Source: Lachnospiraceae bacterium (GTDB lineage: Bacteria; Bacillota; Clostridia; Lachnospirales; Lachnospiraceae). Taken from it: DNA of 64,000 nucleotides. Every line of letters begins with the position of its first letter. Positions within the stretch are counted from its first letter, which is position 1. Positions 15,799 through 37,613 of this stretch are shown here, piece by piece. Position numbers and translations under genes: made by a program. The DNA is taken from contig JAETQH010000011.1 of NCBI GenBank assembly GCA_021770785.1, positions 1-64,000 on the forward strand, in the 5' to 3' direction. The notes under the pieces were generated by a model. It searched no databases, was not told the DNA's origin, and saw nothing but the letters and a program-made list of their open reading frames with translations.

Positions 15799-15828
15799 TT
15801 GTTAATGTCAACCATTGTTTGATATAAT
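15799..15828 (+). promoter_or_regulatory. Promoter of the DUF3791/DUF3990 cassette
   Basis: TTGTTA (15799-15804) and a perfect TATAAT (15823-15828) with an 18-nt spacer, 36 nt before the first gene of the cassette. It gives the cassette transcription independent of polC. A short GGTTG/CAACC repeat (15785-15789, 15809-15813) frames it but is too short to call an operator. Confidence 0.65.
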
Positions 15829-15863
15829 AAAAATAAAAAGCGGGGAAAGGAATGTGAAGCAAT

Positions 15864-16076
15864 ATGTCAGAAAAAAGATTGAACAATACCATTTTTCTTA
15901 TGTATCTGGTTACAGAGAATTATTGCAGGAAACATAATCTTTCTACGGCTGATTTTTTGAGACTGGATGAGAAATATGCGATTTTAAATTATGTTGCAGA
16001 ATGCCCGGATATATTTGACTGCCTGACAAACAGTGAAATGGTTGAGGAGGTAGAGCAGTATGTATCACAAGCTTAA
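15864..16076 (+). CDS. DUF3791 domain protein, first gene of a possible toxin-antitoxin type cassette
   Basis: 70 residues, cytoplasmic, no membrane segment. The sequence MSEKRLNNTIFLMYLVTENY followed by LSTADFLRLDEKY and CPDIFDCLTNSEMVEEVEQYV matches my memory of the DUF3791 family. The function is unknown. Small acidic size, placement first in an operon and a 17-nt overlap with the DUF3990 gene are typical of an antitoxin-like partner; this is inference. GGGGAAAGGAA precedes ATG 15864, and the whole cassette sits between its own promoter and a terminator. Confidence 0.75.
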   Translation: MSEKRLNNTIFLMYLVTENYCRKHNLSTADFLRLDEKYAILNYVAECPDIFDCLTNSEMVEEVEQYVSQA

Positions 16077-16611
16077 AACAACATTATACCATGGAACCGT
16101 GTCAGAGATAGAAAAAGTAGATGTAGAACTGGGACGTAGCAGAAAAGATTTCGGCAGGGGATTTTATATGTCTGTTTCTAAAAATCAGGCAGTGGGAATG
16201 ATGCATAAGAAGTACCGGGAGGCGGTAAGAAGAAGCAGAGGAAAACAGGACAATGCTTTTTCGGAAAAATTATACGAAATATTGTTAGATGAGCAGATTA
16301 TCTCGGAGCTGAATGTAAAAATATTTGAAACGGCTGATTTGGAATGGCTGGATTTTGTTTTGCTGTGCAGGAAACAGGGGAGAATGCCCCATAACTTTGA
16401 TTTAGTAGTGGGACCTACCGCTGATGATGATACAGCATTGTGTTTAAAGGCGTATTGGGATGGGCTTTACGGAAAAACAGGGTCGGTTGAGGCAAAGAAA
16501 GTGTTGCTTTCTAATCTTGAGACGGAGAATTTAGGAATCCAGTATTTTGTTGGAAAACAAGAGGTTGCAGATAAATTGATTGTAGGCATAAAACGGATTG
16601 ACTGGAGGTAG
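16060..16611 (+). CDS. DUF3990 domain protein with ADP-ribosyltransferase-like motifs
   Basis: 183 residues. The amino terminus TLYHGTVSEIEKVDVELGRS, then DFGRGFYMSVSKNQAVGMM, has the His-Gly-Thr and Phe-Gly-x-Gly-Phe-Tyr pattern seen in ADP-ribosyltransferase-fold families such as RES and KptA-type enzymes. I recall DUF3990 as assigned to that clan; a structure prediction should test it. The middle is basic (KKYREAVRRSRGKQ) and the end contains FDLVVGPTADDDTALCLKAYWDG, which is typical of DUF3990. GAGGAGGTAGAG precedes the ATG. Overlap with the DUF3791 gene (17 nt) and a 3-nt gap to the next gene show tight coupling. A toxin or effector role is inferred only. Confidence 0.75.
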   Translation: MYHKLKTTLYHGTVSEIEKVDVELGRSRKDFGRGFYMSVSKNQAVGMMHKKYREAVRRSRGKQDNAFSEKLYEILLDEQIISELNVKIFETADLEWLDFVLLCRKQGRMPHNFDLVVGPTADDDTALCLKAYWDGLYGKTGSVEAKKVLLSNLETENLGIQYFVGKQEVADKLIVGIKRIDWR

Positions 16612-16614
16612 GAG

Positions 16615-16866
16615 ATGAAGGAAAGTAAGGTTGAGACTGCCACAGGAATGTGCGTGATAGCATTGACAAAGCATATTATGAAAACCGAAAATCTTGCGTA
16701 TGAGGAAGCATATAAAAGACTACTGACGACAGAATTGTATCAGCTTTTACAGGATGTGGAAACACGGTTGTTTTTGGAAACAAATGAGTATTTATGTGAG
16801 GCGTATGATAATGAAATGAAATTGGGAAAAGACGCTTTATATGAATATATTAACAGGGAAATTTGA
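16615..16866 (+). CDS. Small hypothetical protein, third gene of the DUF3990 cassette
   Basis: 83 residues, predicted mostly helical, no membrane segment. It contains ATGMCVIALTKHIMKTENLA and a tail LYEYINREI. I recognise it only as a companion of DUF3990-type genes in gut Clostridia, with no assigned function. TAGGAG lies 5-6 nt before ATG and 3 nt after the DUF3990 stop, so translation is coupled. With two small partners on each side of an ART-like protein, it might be a second antitoxin, adaptor or chaperone. The cassette ends 19 nt later at a strong hairpin. Confidence 0.65.
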   Translation: MKESKVETATGMCVIALTKHIMKTENLAYEEAYKRLLTTELYQLLQDVETRLFLETNEYLCEAYDNEMKLGKDALYEYINREI

Positions 16867-16884
16867 ATATAGGAAACAGATAAC

Positions 16885-16934
16885 AAACGAGGGTACGAAA
16901 TGCCTTTTACAGACATTCCGCACCCTCGTTTTTC
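16885..16934 (+). terminator. Terminator between the DUF3990 cassette and the convergent DUF5050 gene
   Basis: AAACGAGGGT (16885-16894) pairs with ACCCTCGTTT (16922-16931), extended by CG pairs inside, with five T at 16929-16933. It lies between two convergent genes and can serve both, though the T-tract favours the plus strand. Confidence 0.75.
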
Positions 16935-26938: not shown

Positions 26939-27445
26939 ATTAGCGAGTTAATGATTAATGAACAAATCAGAGACAAGGAAATTCGTCTGATTGGAGAAAA
27001 CGGTGAGCAGCTTGGCATTATGTCAGCAAGGGAAGCAATGAGATTAGCGGAAGAAGCGGAACTTGATTTAGTAAAAATTGCTCCAACCGCAAAACCACCG
27101 GTATGTAAGATTATCGACTACGGCAAATACCGTTACGAGATGGCGAGAAAGGAAAAAGAAGCCAGAAAAAAACAAAAGGTGGTAGAACTGAAAGAGATTC
27201 GCTTGTCACCTAATATCGATTCCAACGATTTAAACACCAAAATGAATGCTGCAAAAAAATTCTTAAGCAAGGGCGATAAAGTAAAGATTACTTTAAGGTT
27301 CCGTGGGCGTGAGATGGCCCATATGAATGCGAGCAAACATATCTTAGATGATTTCGCAGAGAGCCTTGCCGAGGTGGCAGTAGTGGAAAAGGCACCAAAA
27401 GTTGAAGGCAGAAGCATCAGCATGGTGTTGGCAGAAAAGAAATAA
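26939..27445 (+). CDS. infC: Translation initiation factor IF-3
   Basis: 168 residues. IF-3 binds the 30S subunit, checks the start codon and keeps subunits apart. [36 protein letters not shown] and [12 protein letters not shown] are family signatures. The start is the rare codon ATT at 26939 (GGAGGT ends 8 nt upstream), matching the family amino terminus [11 protein letters not shown]. Rare AUU starts let IF-3 limit its own synthesis in many bacteria. The ATG at 26951 has no suitable ribosome binding site, and the frame upstream reaches into the attenuator. It heads an operon with rpmI and rplT. Confidence 0.95.
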
Positions 27446-27467
27446 TTATTTTAAGGAGGAACTTATC

Positions 27468-27665
27468 ATGCCAAAAATGAAAACAAGCAGAGCAGCTGCA
27501 AAACGTTTCAAAGTAACAGGAACAGGAAAATTAAAAAGAAATAAAGCTTATAAGAGACATATTTTGACCAAGAAAACCACCAAGACTAAGAGAAACTTAA
27601 GAAAACCGGCAATGGTGGATTCTACAAACGTTAAGAATATGAAGAAGATTTTACCATACATGTAA
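27468..27665 (+). CDS. rpmI: 50S ribosomal protein L35
   Basis: 65 residues, very basic. [20 protein letters not shown] and [18 protein letters not shown] are diagnostic of bL35. AAGGAGG lies 9 nt before ATG 27468. It lies between infC and rplT, the conserved order. The 24-nt gaps on both sides carry strong ribosome binding sites. Confidence 0.98.
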
Positions 27666-27689
27666 GAAGTTGTTAAGGAGGATGAAATC

Positions 27690-28046
27690 ATGGCAAGAGT
27701 AAAAGGCGGCTTAGGCGCTAAAAAAAGACATAATAGAACATTAAAATTAGCAAAGGGTTACAGAGGTGCACGTTCTAAACAGTACCGTGTAGCAAAACAG
27801 TCTGTTATGAGAGCCTTAACGAGTTCTTATGCAGGCAGAAAAGAGAGAAAGAGACAGTTTCGCCAGTTATGGATTGCACGTATCAACGCTGCAGCAAGAA
27901 TGAACGGTATCTCTTACAGCCAGATGATGCACGGATTAAAAGTGTCCGGCGTTGAAATCAACCGTAAAATGTTAGCAGAGATGGCAGTGAATGACGCTGA
28001 GGGCTTTGCAGCATTAGCAGAGATGGCAAAGAAAGCAGTTGCTTAA
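27690..28046 (+). CDS. rplT: 50S ribosomal protein L20
   Basis: 118 residues, basic. [40 protein letters not shown] and [21 protein letters not shown] identify bL20, which binds 23S rRNA early in 50S assembly. In Firmicutes L20 also represses this operon by binding the leader. AAGGAGG precedes the ATG. A terminator follows. Confidence 0.98.
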
Positions 28047-28060
28047 TAAGTGGACATGAG

Positions 28061-28101
28061 GACTTATCCGAAAGGGACAACCTGACGGGTAAGTCTTTTT
28101 T
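28061..28101 (+). terminator. Intrinsic terminator after rplT
   Basis: GACTTATCCG (28061-28070) pairs with CGGGTAAGTC (28086-28095) with one G-T pair, followed by six T (28096-28101). Confidence 0.85.
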
Positions 28102-28142
28102 GGATATACAATAAAATGGAAAGAATTATTAGGGAGGAACAA

Positions 28143-28196
28143 ATGATTACGGGTTTTAAAGTAATCATACAATTGATAGATGAAAGAAAAGATTAA
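28143..28196 (+). CDS. Possible 17-codon leader peptide overlapping the glycosyltransferase start
   Basis: ATG 28143 has a strong GGGAGG (28132-28137) at 5-nt spacing and encodes MITGFKVIIQLIDERKD before TAA 28194-28196. The glycosyltransferase ATG at 28180 lies inside it in another frame and has no ribosome binding site of its own. Translational coupling through this peptide is the simplest reading; an N-terminal frameshift is the alternative. Confidence 0.45.
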   Translation: MITGFKVIIQLIDERKD

Positions 28197-29769
28197 GTTA
28201 GTACCAAAATCAATTTTTTTGTATTTTATATTTGCTGTTTTAATAATGATAATAATATCATTAAAATCAAATTATTATATTGATGAAATATATTCCTATG
28301 GTTTGTCGAATGATACCGGAGAGGGGATTGATATAGAAATTGAATATAATAAAACCTATACTCCGGGCGCATTAGCGTTTATTGATTATGTAGCGGTGCA
28401 AGACGGGGAACGCTTCAATTATTCCAGTGTTTGGCAAAATCAGAAAAATGACGTTCATCCTCCGTTCTATTATGCAGTGCTTCATACCATATCTTCTGTT
28501 TTTCCAAATAGATTTTCCAGATGGTTTCCGGGTATTATCAATATTGTGTCCGCACTGTTGGTATTATTTGTGCTGCGTAGAATGGTTTTACTGATGACGG
28601 ATTCGAAATATATTTTAAACATTTTGTCTGTGTCTTTTATCTTTATGACCGGAATATTACTTGCAACCGCATATTTCAGAATGTATTTGATGGCAATGCT
28701 GTGGGTGACGCTTCTGACTTATTGGTTCATGAGGCAGGTAGATAAAAGGCAGGATTTTAAATTTTACGGACTGATTTATTGTGTTACGGTTGTTGGTGCC
28801 CTTACACATTATTATGTTATCGTATATGCAGTTCTTATTTCCTGTGTTTATGGTATTTACTTGTTATGGAATAAGCGAATGAAAGAAACCCTGCTTTTTT
28901 GTGTGACAATGTTATCTGCAGGAGGAACTGCGATAGCTGTGTTTCCGGCAATGCTTCAGCACATGTTTTTCGGTTACAGAGGAACAGAAGCCATCGATAA
29001 TCTGGTGGGGAAGAATGATTATTGGGAGAGTTTTAAGGAATTTTATGATATTATTGACTGCCAGATGTTTGGAAAAAACCTGGGATATATCATTGTCGGT
29101 TTAATGCTGCTGGTTGCTATCCGCTATTCGAAAAATCATTTAGGACTTTTAGATGGAAGTAAAGTGGAAGAGGTTTCTTTTGGCTTTGACCGAAAGACAG
29201 TTATTCGGTATCTGTTGGTATTGGTTCCGTGTTTTTTATATTTTATGTTGATAACAAAAATGACCTTTACATCGGCTGACAGATATATTTCACCTATATA
29301 TGCAGTTTTGTGGGGAAGTATCCTGTGCATTACATTTACTATAATAAAGCATCTGATTGAAAATAGAACTTTTATTGTAATATCGGTTACAATGGTAGCT
29401 TTGATTGTTGTGGGAAGCTACCAAAATACCAGATGGGAGTATCTTTATAGCGAAAGTAAACCTTTTTTAGAAAAGGTAGAAGAATATAAGAATCTGGATT
29501 GTATTTGTGTATTAAATGGAAAATCCTATATGCTTTATCCAGAGTTTGCTGAATATATAAAATATAAGAGTATTACATTTATTACACCGGAGGAACTAAA
29601 AGAAAACGGAATTAATCAGTGGATAACAACAAACGGTGTAGTAGTTTCATTTATTGAAAATAAGGATACGGGAGAATATTTACAAAAAGTGATGGAGGAA
29701 AACGGATATTCAGGCTACGAGGAATTGGGTGGTTTTGGCTATGACAGGACGTATTATTTACACTATTAG
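28180..29769 (+). CDS. GT-C type membrane glycosyltransferase (family 39/ArnT-like)
   Basis: 529 residues with about ten membrane segments. YYIDEIYSYGLSN near residue 30 carries the acidic pair of the first outer loop typical of GT-C enzymes, and NDVHPPFYYAVLHTISSVF near residue 88 is the family His-Pro-Pro motif. Such enzymes transfer sugars from polyprenyl-phosphate donors to lipids, glycans or proteins on the outer face; donor and acceptor are unknown. The DNA is visibly more AT-rich than the operons on either side, a sign of separate origin. There is no own ribosome binding site at ATG 28180 (see the overlapping 17-codon frame). Confidence 0.8.
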   Translation: MKEKIKLVPKSIFLYFIFAVLIMIIISLKSNYYIDEIYSYGLSNDTGEGIDIEIEYNKTYTPGALAFIDYVAVQDGERFNYSSVWQNQKNDVHPPFYYAVLHTISSVFPNRFSRWFPGIINIVSALLVLFVLRRMVLLMTDSKYILNILSVSFIFMTGILLATAYFRMYLMAMLWVTLLTYWFMRQVDKRQDFKFYGLIYCVTVVGALTHYYVIVYAVLISCVYGIYLLWNKRMKETLLFCVTMLSAGGTAIAVFPAMLQHMFFGYRGTEAIDNLVGKNDYWESFKEFYDIIDCQMFGKNLGYIIVGLMLLVAIRYSKNHLGLLDGSKVEEVSFGFDRKTVIRYLLVLVPCFLYFMLITKMTFTSADRYISPIYAVLWGSILCITFTIIKHLIENRTFIVISVTMVALIVVGSYQNTRWEYLYSESKPFLEKVEEYKNLDCICVLNGKSYMLYPEFAEYIKYKSITFITPEELKENGINQWITTNGVVVSFIENKDTGEYLQKVMEENGYSGYEELGGFGYDRTYYLHY

Positions 29770-29824
29770 GGATACCTTGTGCTTCAAAGTGAAACTGCCA
29801 AAAAATTTAAAAAAATATAATAAA

Positions 29825-29853
29825 TTGACAAAAAACTTAAAATAAAATAAAAT
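29825..29853 (+). promoter_or_regulatory. Promoter of the chemoreceptor gene
   Basis: Perfect TTGACA (29825-29830), 17-nt spacer, TAAAAT (29848-29853). Separately, TAAAGTTG (29900-29907), 11 nt, GTCGGAAA (29919-29926) loosely resembles a motility sigma-D promoter. Confidence 0.65.
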
Positions 29854-29941
29854 AATAGAAAATGAGTAGGGAAAAATAGACAAAAATAGCTGCAATCGGT
29901 AAAGTTGTAGAACCTTTTGTCGGAAAGAATGGGAAAAACAT

Positions 29942-31624
29942 ATGAAAAACAGCGTGACTAAAAAATTAATTCCGGCCGTTGTGCTGGCTCTGGCAGTCAT
30001 ATTTATCATTAATAATTTTATTTTTGCCAGAATGCTCAAAAACGAAGTGAAGGAGCAGTGGAAGACGGAGGACTACAAGCTGGTGGTTGCCTATAGTCAG
30101 GAGATGAATGCATTAGGCTGTGAGACAACGGAGGATTACCAGAGTTTTGTAGATATGATTGCATCTCAAAATACATATAATTACGTAGTCTATATGGAAA
30201 ATGTGGGTGGGGCGGTTACAGCTATTGCCCACAGTAATCCGGAACGAATCGGGATCGTCCTTGAGGATGAGGGCAGTGTTGCCGCAACCACGAAGGGAAC
30301 GCCTTACATGGGCTATTACACGGACCCGGTCAGCGGAAACCTCACCATCGACCTTTTAACTCCGGTTTATGACGGGGAGGGCAATCTAAAAGGTGCGTTA
30401 AACCTTGGCATTCCCGCGGACAACGATACACTAAACAGTATTATGGGACATACCATTACTGTATCGACGGTAGTCAGCATTCTTTTGGCGGTGATACTGA
30501 TTGTCCTGCTGGTGCTTATTATTCGACAGATGTTGTTAAAACCGCTGTATGTCTTAGCGCCGGAGATTGAAAAGATGTCAAGGTATGACCTCACCATAAA
30601 GAATAAGGCAGCACTGGAAAAGTACGCACTCTGCAAGGATGAAATCGGTATGATAAGCTCCGGCTTTTTAGCCATGCAGGACAGCTTGATTCAAATGGTC
30701 AACAATATCCGGGAGGTAGCTACGAAACTGACCAACCAGTCGGAAGATTTGTCCGATGTCTGCGCCGAGGTGCATGACAGCAGTTCCCAGCTGTCGAAGA
30801 CAGTGGATGATGTGGCAGAGGGAGCTACCACCCAGGCACAGCAGACCTCCGAGGGCAGCGTGCAGGTTGGAAAATTAAGTGATTTAATTGAGGTTGTGGA
30901 AGAGAATATGGAACATCTCTTTGTGGCAACCAGCTCCGTGGAGGAGATTGAGAAACAGGGCGTGGAGGTTTTGGATGTTCTGGTGGAGAAAACTTCCCTC
31001 AATAATGAAAGCTCCAAACAGGTGCATATGGTGATGGCGGAAACTAGCAGACAGGCAGATAAAATCAAAGATGCCAGCGAACAGATACGGGGCATTGCCT
31101 CCCAGACGAACCTGTTGGCGTTAAACGCCTCTATTGAAGCGGCACGTGCCGGGGATGCAGGAAAGGGCTTTGCAGTAGTGGCAACGGAGATTGGAAATCT
31201 GGCACAGGAAACGAACCAGCTTACCAGCCAGATAGAGCAGATTATCCATGAACTTTTAGCAAAAATGCAGGAGGCGGTAGCCAATATTGCCACTATGGAA
31301 CAGACTACCGTGGAGCAGAGCGAAAGCGTAGAGCAGACCAGAAAGAAATTCGAAGAAATCACAGGAACCATTCAGCAGATGGAGGAACAGTGCGGAAAGC
31401 TGGCGGATTCCACGAAAGATATGAAAGACAGCCGTCGGACCATTGTGGATGTTATTAACGATTTATCGGCGCTTTCCGAAGAAAACGCAGCCTGCATGGA
31501 AGAGGCGGCAGCTTCGGTGAACCTGCAGAATAACTCCATTGAAAAAGTTTCTTTATCCAGCCGGGATGTGGCAGGCTTAGCAGAGACTTTAAATAAAGAA
31601 ATTGCCAGATTTGTAATGGAATAG
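29942..31624 (+). CDS. Methyl-accepting chemotaxis protein
   Basis: 560 residues. Membrane segment 1 at about 8-29, an extracytoplasmic ligand domain of the single-Cache type (about 30-165), membrane segment 2 at about 170-196 ([18 protein letters not shown]), HAMP to about 250, then the coiled-coil signalling domain whose hairpin tip reads [20 protein letters not shown] followed by [18 protein letters not shown]. Glu/Gln pairs suitable for methylation flank it. It signals through CheW and CheA; a CheW gene lies 3.2 kb upstream. The ribosome binding site is weak (GGAAAG or TGGGA). No chemotaxis operon partner is adjacent. Confidence 0.93.
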
Positions 31625-32717: not shown

Positions 32718-33734
32718 ATGGCAATTTTAGTAACTGGTGGAGCTGGATTTATCGGAAGTCACACCTGTGTGGAATTACTTGACGCAGGCTATGAGGTGGT
32801 AGTATTAGACAACTTAAGCAACGCCTCTGAAAAGTCTTTAGACAGGGTAAAGGCGATTACCGGAAAGTCAGTAACTTTCTATAAGGGAGACATTTTAGAC
32901 CGTACCATTTTAAATGAAATTTTTGAAAAAGAGAAGATTGAGGGCTGTATCCATTTTGCAGGCTTGAAGGCAGTGGGTGAGTCCGTGCAGAAGCCATGGG
33001 AATATTACAATAACAATATTTCCGGTACATTAACCCTGGTGGATGTCATGCGGCAGAATAACTGCAAAAACATCATTTTCTCTTCCTCTGCAACGGTATA
33101 TGGAGATCCGGCACAGATACCTATTACGGAGGAATGCCCGAAGGGACAGTGCACTAACCCTTACGGTTGGACCAAATCCATGTTAGAGCAGGTGTTAATG
33201 GACATCCAGAAAGCAGACCCGGAATGGAATGCGATTTTACTTCGTTACTTTAACCCCATCGGTGCCCACAAGAGCGGTACTATGGGAGAAAACCCCAATG
33301 GCATTCCCAACAATCTGATGCCTTATGTGACTCAGGTAGCGGTTGGCAAATTAAAAGAGTTAGGCGTATTCGGCAACGATTACGATACCCCGGACGGAAC
33401 CGGCGTGAGAGATTATATCCATGTGGTAGACCTTGCTGTCGGCCATGTAAAAGCCTTAAAGAAAATCGACGAGAACTGCGGCCTTGCTATTTATAACCTT
33501 GGCACTGGACACGGCTACAGCGTACTGGATATTGTAAAGAATTTTGAGGAAGCTACCGGGGTGAAGGTACCTTACTCCATCAAACCAAGAAGAGCAGGGG
33601 ATATTGCCACCTGTTACTGTGACCCGTCAAAGGCGGAGCGGGAGCTGGGCTGGAAGGCACAGTACGGTATCAAAGAGATGTGCGAGGACTCCTGGAGATG
33701 GCAGAAGAACAATCCCAACGGATATGAGGATTAA
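32718..33734 (+). CDS. galE: UDP-glucose 4-epimerase
   Basis: 338 residues. Interconverts UDP-glucose and UDP-galactose with bound NAD. Rossmann motif GGAGFIGSH at residues 8-16, the catalytic Ser-Ser-Ala-Thr segment [13 protein letters not shown] and Tyr-x3-Lys in [12 protein letters not shown], then [12 protein letters not shown]. The ATG at 32718 follows GGGAAAGGTGG; the frame 7 codons further upstream lacks conservation. It stands alone, divergent from the AraC gene, and supplies UDP-galactose for surface glycans or galactose use. Confidence 0.96.
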
Positions 33735-33852
33735 TTACGCAGTAGAATAGTTAAAGGCTGAAAACGCTTTTGAACGGATAGGAAGAATGAATAACATACG
33801 AGTGTGTGCGAGAGAGATTGTGAACGAGGAAATCATTTACGCATAGCAGATT

Positions 33853-33882
33853 TGCGGCAGGGAGAAATCTTTGCCGCATTTT
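33853..33882 (+). terminator. Hairpin downstream of galE, probable terminator
   Basis: TGCGGCA (33853-33859) pairs with TGCCGCA (33872-33878), followed by TTTTG. It is about 120 nt after the galE stop; nothing convincing is encoded between. Confidence 0.6.
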
Positions 33883-33918
33883 GCATTAGAGTGATTGAGA
33901 AATCCCATTGCAGAATTC

Positions 33919-33957
33919 ATAATCAAGTTATATAAATGGTTTATATAACTTGATTAT
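33919..33957. promoter_or_regulatory. Perfect 18-bp inverted repeat, likely TetR operator
   Basis: ATAATCAAGTTATATAAA (33919-33936) and its exact complement (33940-33957) are separated by TGG. The AT-rich TATATAA blocks in it can act as the -10 region. It ends 13 nt before the TetR start, and the ribosome binding site begins at its edge, so repression by the encoded regulator is expected. Confidence 0.85.
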
Positions 33958-33970
33958 AAGGAGAAATACA

Positions 33971-34537
33971 ATGCCAAAACAAAGAATCACAAAAGAAATG
34001 GTTGTTGATGCCGCTTTTGAAATTGCAAGAAACAGCGGTATGGAGCAGGTTATGGTAAAAAATATCGCAGATAAAATAGGGTGTTCCGTACAACCGATTT
34101 ATAGTTATTGCAAAAATATGGACGGCTTACGGCAAGATGTAATCCAGCAGGTCAATCGCTTTATACAAGAGTATGTAGTGAGGCATATAAACAAGGATGA
34201 CTTGTTTCGCAGTACGGGTAAATCTTATATTCAATTAGCACAAGAGGAACCTCATTTATTTAGGATTTTTATTTTACATCAACGGGAGGAAATTTCTTCA
34301 CTAAATGATTTATATCAATCAGAAGCTAATCCACATACTGCTGAAATTATTGCTAAGGAATTAAGCATTAGTGTAGAGCGGGCAAAACAGTTACATTTAA
34401 ATATGCTAATTTATACGATTGGTATTGGTACTATTTTTTCAGTAACAACGCCGGGGATTTCAACGGATGAAATATATACACAACAGGAAGTTGCTTATGA
34501 GGCGTTTTTAAAACAGGCATTGGAAAATGAGGAGTGA
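33971..34537 (+). CDS. TetR/AcrR family transcriptional regulator
   Basis: 188 residues. Amino-terminal helix-turn-helix RITKEMVVDAAFEIARNSG, VKNIADKIGCSVQPIYSYCK; the rest is a helical ligand domain of no recognisable specificity. ATG 33971 follows AAGGAG with 7 nt spacing. The perfect palindrome directly upstream marks autoregulation. The next gene starts within 3 nt of its stop, so regulator and redox proteins are one operon. The region is distinctly AT-rich compared with galE, which suggests acquisition. Confidence 0.92.
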   Translation: MPKQRITKEMVVDAAFEIARNSGMEQVMVKNIADKIGCSVQPIYSYCKNMDGLRQDVIQQVNRFIQEYVVRHINKDDLFRSTGKSYIQLAQEEPHLFRIFILHQREEISSLNDLYQSEANPHTAEIIAKELSISVERAKQLHLNMLIYTIGIGTIFSVTTPGISTDEIYTQQEVAYEAFLKQALENEE

Positions 34538-34539
34538 TG

Positions 34540-34932
34540 ATGAAGAAGAAAAAGAAACTAATCATAATACTATTATGTACCATATTGTTTGTTTTGATAG
34601 GTGTAAGTCTTTATTTAAAGATGTTAGTTAAAGATGTTAATAGTATTACGGTTTCAACTCTCAATATGGCTAATATTACAGACGGAATATATGTGGGAGA
34701 ATATTCTGTTACGCCTGTTTATGTCAAAGTAGAAGTATCGGTAACAGAGCATAAGATAACTAGTATAAAAATTATCGAACATGAAAACGGGTTAGGTGGT
34801 AAAGCTGAAAAAATTGTTGATGATGTAATCAGCAAGCAATCATTAGAAGTGGCTGCGGTATCTGGAGCTACCGTGAGCAGTAAATGTATTATAAAAGCTA
34901 TTGAGAACGCATTGCAAAGCGGGAGCAAATAA
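34540..34932 (+). CDS. Membrane-anchored FMN-binding domain protein
   Basis: 130 residues. Lys-rich start, one membrane segment (about 7-27, IIILLCTILFVLIGVSLYL), then an extracytoplasmic FMN_bind domain: DGIYVGEYSVTPVYVKVEVS, ENGLGGKAEKIVDDVI and the flavinylation motif SGATVSS, in which the Thr should carry covalently bound FMN. Attachment needs an ApbE-type flavin transferase, which is not in this window. Such domains act in electron transfer at the outer face. GAGGAG ends 5 nt before ATG 34540; translation is coupled to the TetR gene. The neighbour is a flavodoxin. Confidence 0.85.
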   Translation: MKKKKKLIIILLCTILFVLIGVSLYLKMLVKDVNSITVSTLNMANITDGIYVGEYSVTPVYVKVEVSVTEHKITSIKIIEHENGLGGKAEKIVDDVISKQSLEVAAVSGATVSSKCIIKAIENALQSGSK

Positions 34933-34963
34933 AATATAAGTTTTATACGGAAAGGAAATCACT

Positions 34964-35491
34964 ATGGCAAAAGGAATTATTGTTTATCAGTCAAAATATG
35001 GGGCAACAAAAAAATATGCTGAATGGCTTCAAGGCATGACGGATTATCATTGTGTAGAAACATCAAAAGCGGTGGTAAATGAAGTAGCACAATACGAAAC
35101 AATCATATTATGCGGTGGCATATATGCTTCTGGAATAGCTGGATTACCGTTTTTGAAAAAGAATATAGATAGGCTGAAAAGCAAAAAACTGGCTATATTA
35201 TGTGTGGGTGCTTCTCCTTATGATGAGGGTGCATTTACAGCAATTAAAGAGCATAATTTGATGGGTGATTTAAGAGATATTCCGCTTTTTTATGGGCGAG
35301 GTGCATGGAACGAAAGCAAAATGAAATTTATGGACAGAACCTTATGCAAAATGTTACAAAAATCTGTAGCAAAAAAAGATCCAAGTACATACGAACCGTG
35401 GATGAAAGCTCTTATGTGTGCGGTAGGACAAGATTGCGACTGGACAGATAAAAAGTATTTAATTCCTTTAATAGATTTTTTGAAAAAATAG
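34964..35491 (+). CDS. Flavodoxin domain protein
   Basis: 175 residues. The amino terminus GIIVYQSKYGATKKYAEWLQ is the FMN phosphate-binding loop of flavodoxins, and IILCGGIYASGIAGLPFLKK is the second flavin loop. The C-terminal part PWMKALMCAVGQDCDWTDKK resembles protoporphyrinogen-oxidase-like (HemG-type) flavodoxins, but no heme genes are near. With the FMN-binding membrane protein it forms a small redox operon under the TetR palindrome. AAAGGAAA precedes the ATG. No terminator is clear; the mobile-element scar follows directly. Confidence 0.85.
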   Translation: MAKGIIVYQSKYGATKKYAEWLQGMTDYHCVETSKAVVNEVAQYETIILCGGIYASGIAGLPFLKKNIDRLKSKKLAILCVGASPYDEGAFTAIKEHNLMGDLRDIPLFYGRGAWNESKMKFMDRTLCKMLQKSVAKKDPSTYEPWMKALMCAVGQDCDWTDKKYLIPLIDFLKK

Positions 35492-35527
35492 GTATCAGAA
35501 ATGTAGAAAGGGCAAGTGATAAATTGA

Positions 35528-35637
35528 ATAAATCAGAATGGATATTGTCCTGTTTGTGGTAGTAAAACCCGTGACAGACTTAGAGAAGATATGATTTTGA
35601 AGAATTATCCGCTCTACTGTTCGAAGTGCAAGCAGGA
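35528..35637 (+). pseudogene. Truncated cysteine-rich KTR-type protein
   Basis: The frame encodes GYCPVCGSKTRDRLREDMIL then KNYPLYCSKCKQE, the core of the small cysteine-rich KTR proteins commonly carried by Tn916-like and related conjugative elements. It has no start codon (a TGA precedes at 35525-35527), and the normal C-terminal end is replaced from about 35638 by recombinase sequence. It is broken at both ends. Confidence 0.65.
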
Positions 35638-35745
35638 AAGTCACACGCTGATGTCAGTACCACAATGAACATTTACGCTCACGCTACAAGGGAAGCGAAG
35701 CGTACTTCCGCAAGACTGCTGGATAAAGTAGCCGGCGGAGAATAA
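35638..35745 (+). pseudogene. C-terminal remnant of a tyrosine recombinase (integrase)
   Basis: In a different frame from the KTR fragment the DNA reads HADVSTTMNIYAHATREAKR then TSARLLDKVAGGE and stop. HADVSTTMxIYAHA contains the active-site His and catalytic Tyr region of phage and conjugative-transposon integrases. Everything before it is missing, so this is a deletion scar of a mobile element. Confidence 0.75.
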
Positions 35746-35750
35746 AAAAG

Positions 35751-35790
35751 TTTCCCTTGTTTCGGCTCGTAAGGGCAAAAACAAGGGAAA
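35751..35790. terminator. 12-bp inverted repeat after the recombinase remnant
   Basis: TTTCCCTTGTTT (35751-35762) and AAACAAGGGAAA (35779-35790) are perfectly complementary with a 16-nt loop. An A-run before it gives a T-run on the minus strand, so it can terminate leftward transcription; on the plus strand it probably terminated the lost element gene. Confidence 0.55.
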
Positions 35791-35897
35791 ATACATAAGG
35801 TTTGAACATTTAATGGGCGATACACCTTGAAAATACAAGGTTTTTAGAGGATTGAATAGATAAACTGGAATTTTCAGTTCTCCACAAATTGGATTTG

Positions 35898-36317
35898 CTA
35901 GATTCCTTTAATTAAAAACATCTCCATTGGTTGTTCATATCCTGGAACATCTATAACAAAACCACCACAATCTTTATACCCTAATTTTCTATAAAAATGC
36001 TGTGCTTCTTCATCAACCTGCGTAGATGTCAAAAGCATACCATATCCTTGTGATTTCATATCGTTTTCCCAATGTTCCATAAGTTTCTTTCCATAACCTT
36101 TTCCGTGATAATTCCAATCAATAAATAACATTGTACAAAACGGTGTATTATCCCAAAAAAGATTATATCTCAACAATCCTATTGGTTTATTGTCATCTAA
36201 TAAAACATATCCTTTTTTATCACTAACTTTATTGTTAAATTCTTGTTCTGGCAAATGACTATCAAGACGATACCAAAATTCTTTATCTTCTAATTGAACA
36301 TATCTAATTTCTACCAT
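35898..36317 (-). CDS. GNAT family N-acetyltransferase
   Basis: 139 residues. Acetyl-CoA-binding motif A is WNYHGKGYGKKLMEHWEND; QHFYRKLGYKDCGGFV is the C-terminal motif. The acceptor is unknown. The amino terminus MVEIRYVQLEDKEFWYRLD is typical of small clostridial GNAT proteins. Codon use is AT-rich, as in the TetR operon, and it lies just beyond the mobile-element scar, so it may belong to the same acquired segment. AGGTAAAAGAAATGG surrounds the start; the ribosome binding site is weak (GAGGT). Confidence 0.85.
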   Translation of the reverse strand: MVEIRYVQLEDKEFWYRLDSHLPEQEFNNKVSDKKGYVLLDDNKPIGLLRYNLFWDNTPFCTMLFIDWNYHGKGYGKKLMEHWENDMKSQGYGMLLTSTQVDEEAQHFYRKLGYKDCGGFVIDVPGYEQPMEMFLIKGI

Positions 36318-36474
36318 TTCTTTTACCTCGCTAAATTTCCGATTTGCCGCTTACTTATGTATAGCTATTTTATCACTCGTTCTTTCATAGCACAAGCCGA
36401 AGTCAAAGAGGAACTGGTTGGTGAAAATTTTATTATTTGGAAAATTTAGGGTTGTATTCCGTATAAATATAATG

Positions 36475-36513
36475 TACTATTATATCTGGTATTTAAAACC
36501 AGATGAAATAGTA
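36475..36513 (+). promoter_or_regulatory. Nested inverted repeat in the nitronate monooxygenase leader
   Basis: TACTAT (36475-36480), ATCTGGT (36484-36490), ACCAGAT (36498-36504), ATAGTA (36508-36513): two nested perfect arms with symmetric 3-nt bulges. A TATAAT (36468-36473) just precedes, so the repeat sits at the expected transcription start and may be an operator or a 5' hairpin. Confidence 0.55.
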
Positions 36514-36530
36514 TATGAGGAGAACATAAT

Positions 36531-37613
36531 ATGGAAAAGAAACCGATATTTGATATGAAAGCATTTCAGAAATGGAATATTAAAGTTCCGCTGATTCAGG
36601 GAGGCATGGGAGTCGGTGTCAGCCTCAGCGGGCTGGCAGGTGCGGTGGCTGCCGAAGGCGGAATTGGTATTATCTCCACGGCGCAGATAGGGTTTGCGGA
36701 ACCGGATTTTGAAAATCATGAGGAAGAATGCAATCTGCGTGGAATTCGCAAGCATATTCAACGGGCAAAGGAAATCGCAGGGGGCGAGGGCATGGTGGGT
36801 GTTAATGTCATGGTGGCGCTGCAGCATTATAAGGAGCATGTGCGGGAGGCGGTGCGTGCAGGGGCAGATGTTGTCATCTGCGGGGCAGGGCTGCCTATGG
36901 ATTTGCCGGAATTGGTAAAGGGAAGCCTGACGAAGATTGCCCCGGTGGTTTCTTCGAAGAGAGCGATTGCGCTGTTATTAAAGAGTTGGGATAAAAAATA
37001 CCGGCGGGTGCCGGATTTTATCGTTGTGGAAGGACCGGAGGCGGGAGGACATTTGGGCTTTTCAAAAGAGCAGCTGTCAAATACGGAGAAGCCGGATTTT
37101 GCCATGGAATTAAAAGAGATTATCGGTGAAAAGAAGAAGTACGAGGAAAAGTACCGGACGGATATTCCGGTATTTATGGCAGGCGGTGTCTGGGACGCAG
37201 CAGATGCGGAAAAAATCTGTGCTCTGGGGGCGGACGGCATACAGGCAGCCACCCGCTTTGTGGCGACGGAGGAGTGTGATGCCTCAGAAGCCTATAAGAT
37301 GGCGTATGTCCATGCAAAGCCGGAGGAGATTAAAATTATCAAAAGTCCGGTGGGAATGCCGGGACGCGCCCTGGAGAATGAATTGCTCCGGGAGGTGGAA
37401 GAGAAAAATCCGGTGAAAATTAGCCATTGCTATCACTGTATCAAAAACTGCCATCCGGCACAAATCCCTTATTGTATCACCAAAGCACTGGTGGCAGCGG
37501 TAAAAGGCGATGTAGAGCATGGGCTGGTGTTCTGCGGCAGCAATGTGGGAAAAATCCAAAAGATTGAGACGGTGCATGAGGTGGTGCAGGATTTGATGTA
37601 TAAAGAAGTATAA
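36531..37613 (+). CDS. Nitronate monooxygenase family flavoenzyme
   Basis: 360 residues, FMN-dependent TIM barrel. PLIQGGMGVGVSLSGLAGAV at the start, GVNVMVAL, GADVVICGAGLP, the His-containing VVEGPEAGGHLGF that marks class members, VFMAGGVWDAADAEKICALG for flavin phosphate binding, and ADGIQAATRFVATEECDA. The C-terminal CYHCIKNCHPAQIPYCITKA is a Cys-rich extension common in clostridial members. It may oxidise nitronates or act as an enoyl-ACP reductase-like (FabK) enzyme; absence of fatty-acid genes nearby argues against FabK. GAGGAG lies 10 nt before ATG 36531. Confidence 0.85.
   Translation: MEKKPIFDMKAFQKWNIKVPLIQGGMGVGVSLSGLAGAVAAEGGIGIISTAQIGFAEPDFENHEEECNLRGIRKHIQRAKEIAGGEGMVGVNVMVALQHYKEHVREAVRAGADVVICGAGLPMDLPELVKGSLTKIAPVVSSKRAIALLLKSWDKKYRRVPDFIVVEGPEAGGHLGFSKEQLSNTEKPDFAMELKEIIGEKKKYEEKYRTDIPVFMAGGVWDAADAEKICALGADGIQAATRFVATEECDASEAYKMAYVHAKPEEIKIIKSPVGMPGRALENELLREVEEKNPVKISHCYHCIKNCHPAQIPYCITKALVAAVKGDVEHGLVFCGSNVGKIQKIETVHEVVQDLMYKEV

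Follow-up and report, generated by a model that had tools for sequence, protein, structure and literature searches.

A three-gene operon behind polC encodes a predicted ADP-ribosyltransferase toxin and a proposed antitoxin split over two genes

The toxins of the ParST, RES-Xre and MbcTA toxin-antitoxin (TA) systems have an ADP-ribosyltransferase (ART) fold, and RES-type toxins are known both to degrade NAD+ and to carry out ADP-ribosylation. DarT modifies DNA, and DarG removes ADP-ribose. As excerpts of PMC12255303 describe it, DarTG2, a TA pair whose toxin is an ART, lies among the genes of a type I restriction-modification (R-M) operon. CmdTAC is a three-component ART toxin system in phage defense, whose antitoxin is degraded once a phage protein has titrated the chaperone away (excerpts of PMC11618068). 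DUF3990, which passages of the literature give as a member of the Pfam ART clan and also list among Rhs domains of unknown function, forms the C-terminal domain of an Rhs effector, Rhs5-CT of Serratia marcescens, next to a predicted immunity gene (excerpts of PMC4524185). Here we analyze a cassette of three genes, encoding a DUF3791 protein, a DUF3990 protein and a small third protein, that lies behind polC in a 64-kb stretch of DNA from a Lachnospiraceae bacterium (contig JAETQH010000011.1, positions 1 to 64,000; below, the window). Our data suggest that gene 2 probably encodes an ART-fold toxin, held inactive in a complex with the products of genes 1 and 3, which would together form one antitoxin split over two genes.

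The cassette consists of three plus-strand open reading frames (ORFs) 3' of polC, in which genes 1 and 2 overlap by 17 nt and genes 2 and 3 are separated by 3 nt, exactly the tight coupling described in a first-pass annotation of the sequence. Across 13 of 13 feasible gene-by-relative comparisons, 12 against loci L065-L068 and one against L088, the proportion of nonsynonymous differences (pN) was lower than that of synonymous differences (pS); the L088 contig ends, so only gene 1 could be compared there and the other two comparisons were impossible. For gene 1 against L065-L068, pN was 0.15-0.26 and pS 0.68-0.88. The three ORFs therefore look like real genes, and these comparisons rule out chance ORFs. 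Gene 1 belongs to Pfam DUF3791 (PF12668), marginally so at 25.6 bits against a gathering cut-off of 25, with DUF3791 relatives reaching 90 bits, and gene 2 belongs to DUF3990 (PF13151), at 111.2 bits against a cut-off of 32.2. A Pfam scan of gene 2 at E<=1 returned only DUF3990 and a weak ART-PolyVal match, gene 3 matched no Pfam family above cut-off, and NCBIfam gave nothing near a cut-off for any cassette protein.

All three proteins also match models of the candidate system PDC-M13 in PADLOC-DB version 2.0.0 (2023): gene 1 matches PDC-M13A (5e-8) and PDC-M13C (5e-7), gene 2 matches PDC-M13B (9e-32), and gene 3 matches PDC-M13C (3e-11) and PDC-M13B (5e-8). The PDC-M13 models thus recognize three components lying in one operon, with the same three-gene anatomy; their letters A, B and C do not map one-to-one onto the three protein families, and the assignment is by models, not by PADLOC's system rule. 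Judged by these models, the trio is a member of DUF3990/DUF3791 and of PDC-M13, and it is therefore not the undescribed system that the first-pass annotation had proposed. PDC candidates reportedly originate in the 2024 bioRxiv 'guilt-by-embedding' preprint of Payne et al. PDC-M13, a candidate system only, has been counted 3324 times in 6530 rumen genomes and metagenome-assembled genomes (MAGs), and the excerpts of that paper attach no mechanism to it (PMC13356809). In the open-licence literature, a scope that leaves out bioRxiv, we found no function of the trio in print; DUF3990 is mentioned in four papers there and DUF3791 in one.

An AlphaFold2 model of the 183-residue gene 2 protein is highly confident (pLDDT 94.8) and shows an ART fold, bearing out the ART-like center that had been read from the YHGT and DFGRGFY motifs, both of which are present and conserved. 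Its nearest structural neighbors are ParT and the RES toxins, from ParST and RES-Xre TA pairs; the best match, ParT, carries a PDB title that describes it as a Prs ADP-ribosylating toxin. A PDB sequence search with gene 2 gave no useful match (best E 0.95). By analogy, we take His11 as a candidate NAD-binding residue, Tyr36 as a candidate nicotinamide-stacking residue and Gln161 as a candidate third position of an H-Y-[EDQ] center (Table 1).

By the features tested, the trio is neither a RES-Xre pair nor CmdTAC. Gene 2 is structurally most similar to the toxins of ParST, RES-Xre and MbcTA, but at Pfam E<=1 it has no RES domain, and the Pfam scan found no helix-turn-helix (HTH) domain, Xre-type or other, in genes 1 and 3; HTH forms do exist in relatives. 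The third part of CmdTAC is a SecB-like chaperone (excerpts of PMC11618068), whereas genes 1 and 3 match no chaperone and no SecB-like family in Pfam (E<=1). Some trio relatives are embedded in R-M operons as DarTG2 is, but gene 2 has no DarT match and genes 1 and 3 have no macrodomain match at the same threshold. The DUF3990 domain of Rhs5-CT is part of a secreted Rhs protein (excerpts of PMC4524185), and gene 2 has no such part.

The partnership of the two small proteins with the enzyme is conserved. In a GTDB scan, 79 of 80 loci contained an ART ORF, and both partners were recognized in 76 of the 79 among the matches listed, with the order DUF3791-ART-gene 3 in 65 and ART-gene 3-DUF3791 in 11 of these; the query consisted of trio-type ARTs, so the set is biased, and the models were refined on the same loci. 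The remaining three loci are a fusion of DUF3791 to the ART (L123), a shortened ART with gene 3 missing (L094) and a locus near a contig end (L081). The three genes thus stay together, as had been expected of them, with fusions and permutations besides, and the natural fusions serve as a proxy for the proposed complex of the three proteins. The L123 fusion gave a model (pLDDT 92.3, pTM 0.75) with a helical DUF3791 part, from an alignment of 48 DUF3791 rows and 5 ART rows whose row set was picked by trial.

In other relatives, a single protein of about 150 residues follows the ART in place of the two small genes. Its N-terminal half matches the DUF3791 profile (hhalign probability 90.9, score 36.4, against a maximum of 19.8 in 60 column shuffles) and its C-terminal half the gene-3 profile (probability 94.7, score 42.0, shuffle maximum 15.5), and the cross-matches of the halves have probabilities of 0 and 3. 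PADLOC names this partner PDC-M10B and its ART PDC-M10A, and the PDC-M13C model matches residues 99-149 of the partner in L017 (E 1e-7). A scan of viral sequences for further PDC-M10B partners yielded one locus, on the same contig as L049. A third group carries the two parts reversed, gene-3-like then DUF3791-like (probabilities 90.9 and 93.5, scores 35.5 and 39.2, shuffle maxima 15.7 and 14.4). The DUF3791 profile also matches the first half of this reversed partner as a second choice (probability 67.5), as would be expected if DUF3791 and gene 3 were distant relatives, which they look to be by profile comparison (hhalign probability 60). PADLOC names the reversed partner PDC-M42B (E 5e-78 in L219, 4e-10 in L225), and Pfam DUF3791 reaches its C-terminal half in L225 at E 9e-4, below cut-off. 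Compared as whole profiles, partners of the M10 type and of the reversed type show no match (probability 0.2). By these profile comparisons, genes 1 and 3 are the equivalents of the two halves of the PDC-M10 and PDC-M42 partners, which is the new element here: PDC-M10 and PDC-M42 (PADLOC-DB 2.0.0) combine the same ART family with one partner protein of the same two domains, whereas the window carries the halves as two genes, one on each side of the ART.

A fourth group adds a C-terminal HTH_3 domain to the reversed partner (E 5e-8 in L217). On its own, this HTH-tailed partner gives only weak matches to DUF3791 and gene 3 (probabilities 6.5 and 6.9); it is tied to them through its match to the reversed type at probability 98.6. 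HTH-DUF3791 fusions occur in L140 and, by eye, in L096, L129 and L048, and a separate HTH gene overlaps by 4 nt in L005 and, by eye, in L006. In L146 (1710-2573), an ART with an N-terminal HTH_3 domain adjoins a reversed-type partner, and in this group the predicted toxin itself may bind DNA. A Verrucomicrobia MAG encodes a gene-3-like domain fused to a DUF2971 domain (L125, 6515-7567). We also noted a group of ARTs of about 185-205 residues (L053, L055-L058, L060-L062, L250 and L279), eight of them on viral contigs, for which the models used recognized none of the usual partners; an adjacent gene of 79-84 codons in L250 and L279 resembles DUF3791 by eye, and that of L279 matches no family.

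Across 116 genomes, the window's own included, DUF3990 is present in 54 and DUF3791 in 25, and 42 of 46 DUF3791 places, some of which are really gene-3 genes, have a DUF3990 place, intact or broken, no more than 700 nt away on the same strand. Of 108 DUF3990 places, 97 were kept after removal of second pieces and of the weakest rows, and these were merged into 95 stretches; G047:C663, whose contig ends in the ART, was left out, and G047:C361 was added and then skipped in the count for having no ART, giving 94 loci. A recognized partner accompanies 72 of the 77 intact ARTs in these neighborhoods and is lacking for five. The partners are both small genes in 23 cases, M10-type in 24 and reversed types in 25, the last figure being partly by construction, as the reversed-type models were built on counted loci. 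The window's own genome has two more DUF3990 loci: L208 (G000:C12), a PDC-M10-type pair that is intact, and L209 (G000:C24), where the ART is broken and its partner intact.

The enzyme can decay while a partner is kept. Of the 19 loci in which the ART is broken or partial, 13 retain a recognized partner. In three further loci (L196, L199 and L200, the last 139 nt from a contig end), both partners are present and the stretch contains no ART; these hold the four DUF3791 places away from DUF3990. In L198, an ART without profile positions 9-92 keeps 4-nt overlaps on both sides. Loss of the enzyme with retention of the partner is the pattern expected of a toxin and its antitoxin. The other six of the 19 loci do not show this pattern; L302, among the 19, is cut by a contig end, and in L254 and L255 the distance rule missed a partner-like ORF beside the fragment.

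Operon anatomy, fold neighbors, decay pattern and HTH fusions all support, by computation alone, the earlier suggestion of a toxin with two small partners, and from them we infer how toxicity, neutralization, trigger and target might be arranged. Gene 1 would be translated first, gene 2 starts inside it and gene 3 would follow at once, so that antitoxin would be made before toxin. The antitoxin would be lost or drawn off, probably in phage infection or upon disturbance of a neighboring defense system. The freed enzyme would then either ADP-ribosylate an essential target, of the host or of the phage, with NAD+ as substrate or merely consume NAD+, and growth would stop. The role of the cassette is probably abortive infection or that of a guard.

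Several relatives lie inside defense operons. Two genomes, G050 (named by PADLOC) and G015 (cas5c by PADLOC, the rest by likeness), carry a PDC-M10-type pair within a type I-C CRISPR-Cas locus, with cas3 on one side and cas5c on the other, and an ART without a recognized partner lies between brxC and pglX of a BREX operon (G072). ART-gene 3-DUF3791 trios occur within a type I R-M operon (G081) and, by the record's annotation, between the type I M and S genes of a Moraxella osloensis plasmid. The window copy has no defense gene beside it that we could recognize by eye; placement in defense operons is shown for several relatives and not for the window copy. A PADLOC scan covered 76 of 116 upstream and 74 of 107 downstream neighbors, omitting most on viral contigs and many short ones, and considered the best 25 of 180 families upstream and the best 25 of 102 downstream. 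Among the families listed, the commonest defense family upstream was that of type I specificity subunits (5 of 76 neighbors) and the commonest downstream were PDC-S01 and mad3 (3 of 74), with Cas5c in 2 of 74. As a general statement, proximity to defense islands is not established. Protein matches were found in 71 of 72,556 plasmid records and 7 of 50,697 phage records, and carriers of the module include small plasmids.

These observations bear on other explanations of the trio. One small protein alone might be the antitoxin and the other a sensor or chaperone, an arrangement we consider unlikely. Three-part ART systems with such logic exist (CmdTAC, excerpts of PMC11618068), genes 1 and 3 are both retained and differ in sequence, and either can persist beside a broken ART, DUF3791 in L204 with no gene 3 in the stretch and gene 3 in L202 and L240 with only a DUF3791 remnant. 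This division of labor fits poorly with the apparent distant kinship of the two proteins, their correspondence to domains fused in both orders, and the lack of a Pfam chaperone match (E<=1) for either. The carriage of the module by small plasmids, the position of the window copy behind polC with no recognizable defense gene alongside, and the absence of any defense family from more than 5 of the 76 neighbors scanned (among the families listed) would all suit a selfish addiction module, a TA set that secures the DNA carrying it without protecting against phages. We nevertheless find this doubtful, as relatives recur inside CRISPR-Cas, BREX and type I R-M operons, which exceeds what addiction needs, even if such placement could addict the cell to the defense operon.

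It is possible, though not the reading we favor, that gene 2 encodes an NAD+ glycohydrolase, which would deplete NAD+ and modify no target. The third position of the presumed center is Gln, not Glu, in 81 of 83 alignment rows (the other two being gaps), and the NAD+-degrading RES-type toxins are among the nearest folds; the title of the best match, ParT, as a Prs ADP-ribosylating toxin points the other way. A non-toxic, regulatory ART with two binding partners and a housekeeping use seems highly improbable. A few intact ARTs do lack a recognized partner, in keeping with this reading, but patchy presence (54 of 116 genomes), insertion polymorphism, plasmid carriage and decay of the enzyme with its partner kept all fit a toxin better.

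The idea of an ART toxin whose antitoxin is bipartite and permutable would bring two families without a known function, together with an unnamed small protein, under a single testable proposition. If it is true, three separately listed defense candidates, PDC-M10, PDC-M13 and PDC-M42, merge, and there is reason to consider that ART modules may guard the CRISPR-Cas, BREX and R-M operons in which some of them reside. More tentatively, the three candidates could form one ART-toxin superfamily with an obligate two-domain inhibitor, which is split, fused in both orders, tied to an HTH domain or fused to the toxin, and which might act as a guard inside such operons, killing the cell when host defense is lost or attacked.

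The trio was inserted at its present site, as the first-pass annotation had proposed. We searched for the polC 3' end in 60 genomes of the genus, the window's own included, found it in 58 and examined 30 loci including the window; polC, the convergent next gene and a pheA-like gene were named by eye. The cassette lies behind polC in only two of the 30, the window and its close relative G047, whose contig covers gene 1 and stops 51 codons into gene 2. The site is empty in 15 loci, where the gene found beyond the trio in the window lies 18-136 nt behind polC; the start of the pheA-like gene comes next in 14 of the 15. The next gene is displaced by 0.6-1.1 kb in three loci, and ten show other neighbors within the 1.5 kb viewed. 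With 15 of the 30 loci empty and the cassette present in the window and G047, the trio is therefore an insertion.

The cassette had also been credited with its own promoter and terminator. A promoter scan found the TTGTTA-18-TATAAT site with its TG, and this is mostly kept in G047, in which the TGATATAAT part is identical, the -35 element is one base off (ATGTTA) and 69 of 88 intergenic bases are alike; the region contains six such sites, near the 4.6 +- 1.9 expected by chance. The strong hairpin after gene 3 is probably an old terminator outside the insert: relatives L159-L161, which lack the cassette, have by eye a hairpin at the same position, between polC and the convergent next gene, and a shared origin is therefore more likely than a terminator belonging to the cassette.

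Table 1. Coordinates of the cassette features in the window and of related modules in other loci.
Feature	Position	Strand	Remarks
Promoter-like site	15799..15828	+	TTGTTA-18-TATAAT, TG ahead of -10; 10/12 matches in scan
Gene 1	15864..16076	+	DUF3791 protein, 70 aa; proposed first half of bipartite antitoxin
Gene 2	16060..16611	+	DUF3990 protein, 183 aa; predicted ADP-ribosyltransferase toxin; start within gene 1
His11 codon	16090..16092	+	YHGT motif, first strand (residues 8-13); H in 82/83 alignment rows
Tyr36 codon	16165..16167	+	DFGRGFY motif, strand 35-38; Tyr in 83/83 alignment rows
Gln161 codon	16540..16542	+	Strand 159-164; Q in 81/83 alignment rows, 2 gaps
Gene 3	16615..16866	+	83 aa; proposed second half of bipartite antitoxin
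Hairpin and T run, terminator-like	16885..16931		Found by scan; probably pre-existing terminator between polC and next gene
ART modules in other loci	L192 9188-10079; L195 9955-10849; L191 5761-6246; L194 5957-6880		Within type I-C CRISPR-Cas, BREX and type I R-M operons

The G+C content of the cassette is 37.4%, against 48.9% for polC, and is as low in 44 of 629 equally long stretches of the window. Two further AT-rich stretches of the window (27200-30400 and 33600-36800) have a G+C content equal to that of the cassette or lower. The 3' end of polC may be an insertion hotspot. By eye, other sequence separates polC from the next gene in L162, L170 and L186, and in L172 (G034, same genus) an ORF of 429 codons that reads like a tyrosine recombinase lies directly behind polC on the opposite strand.
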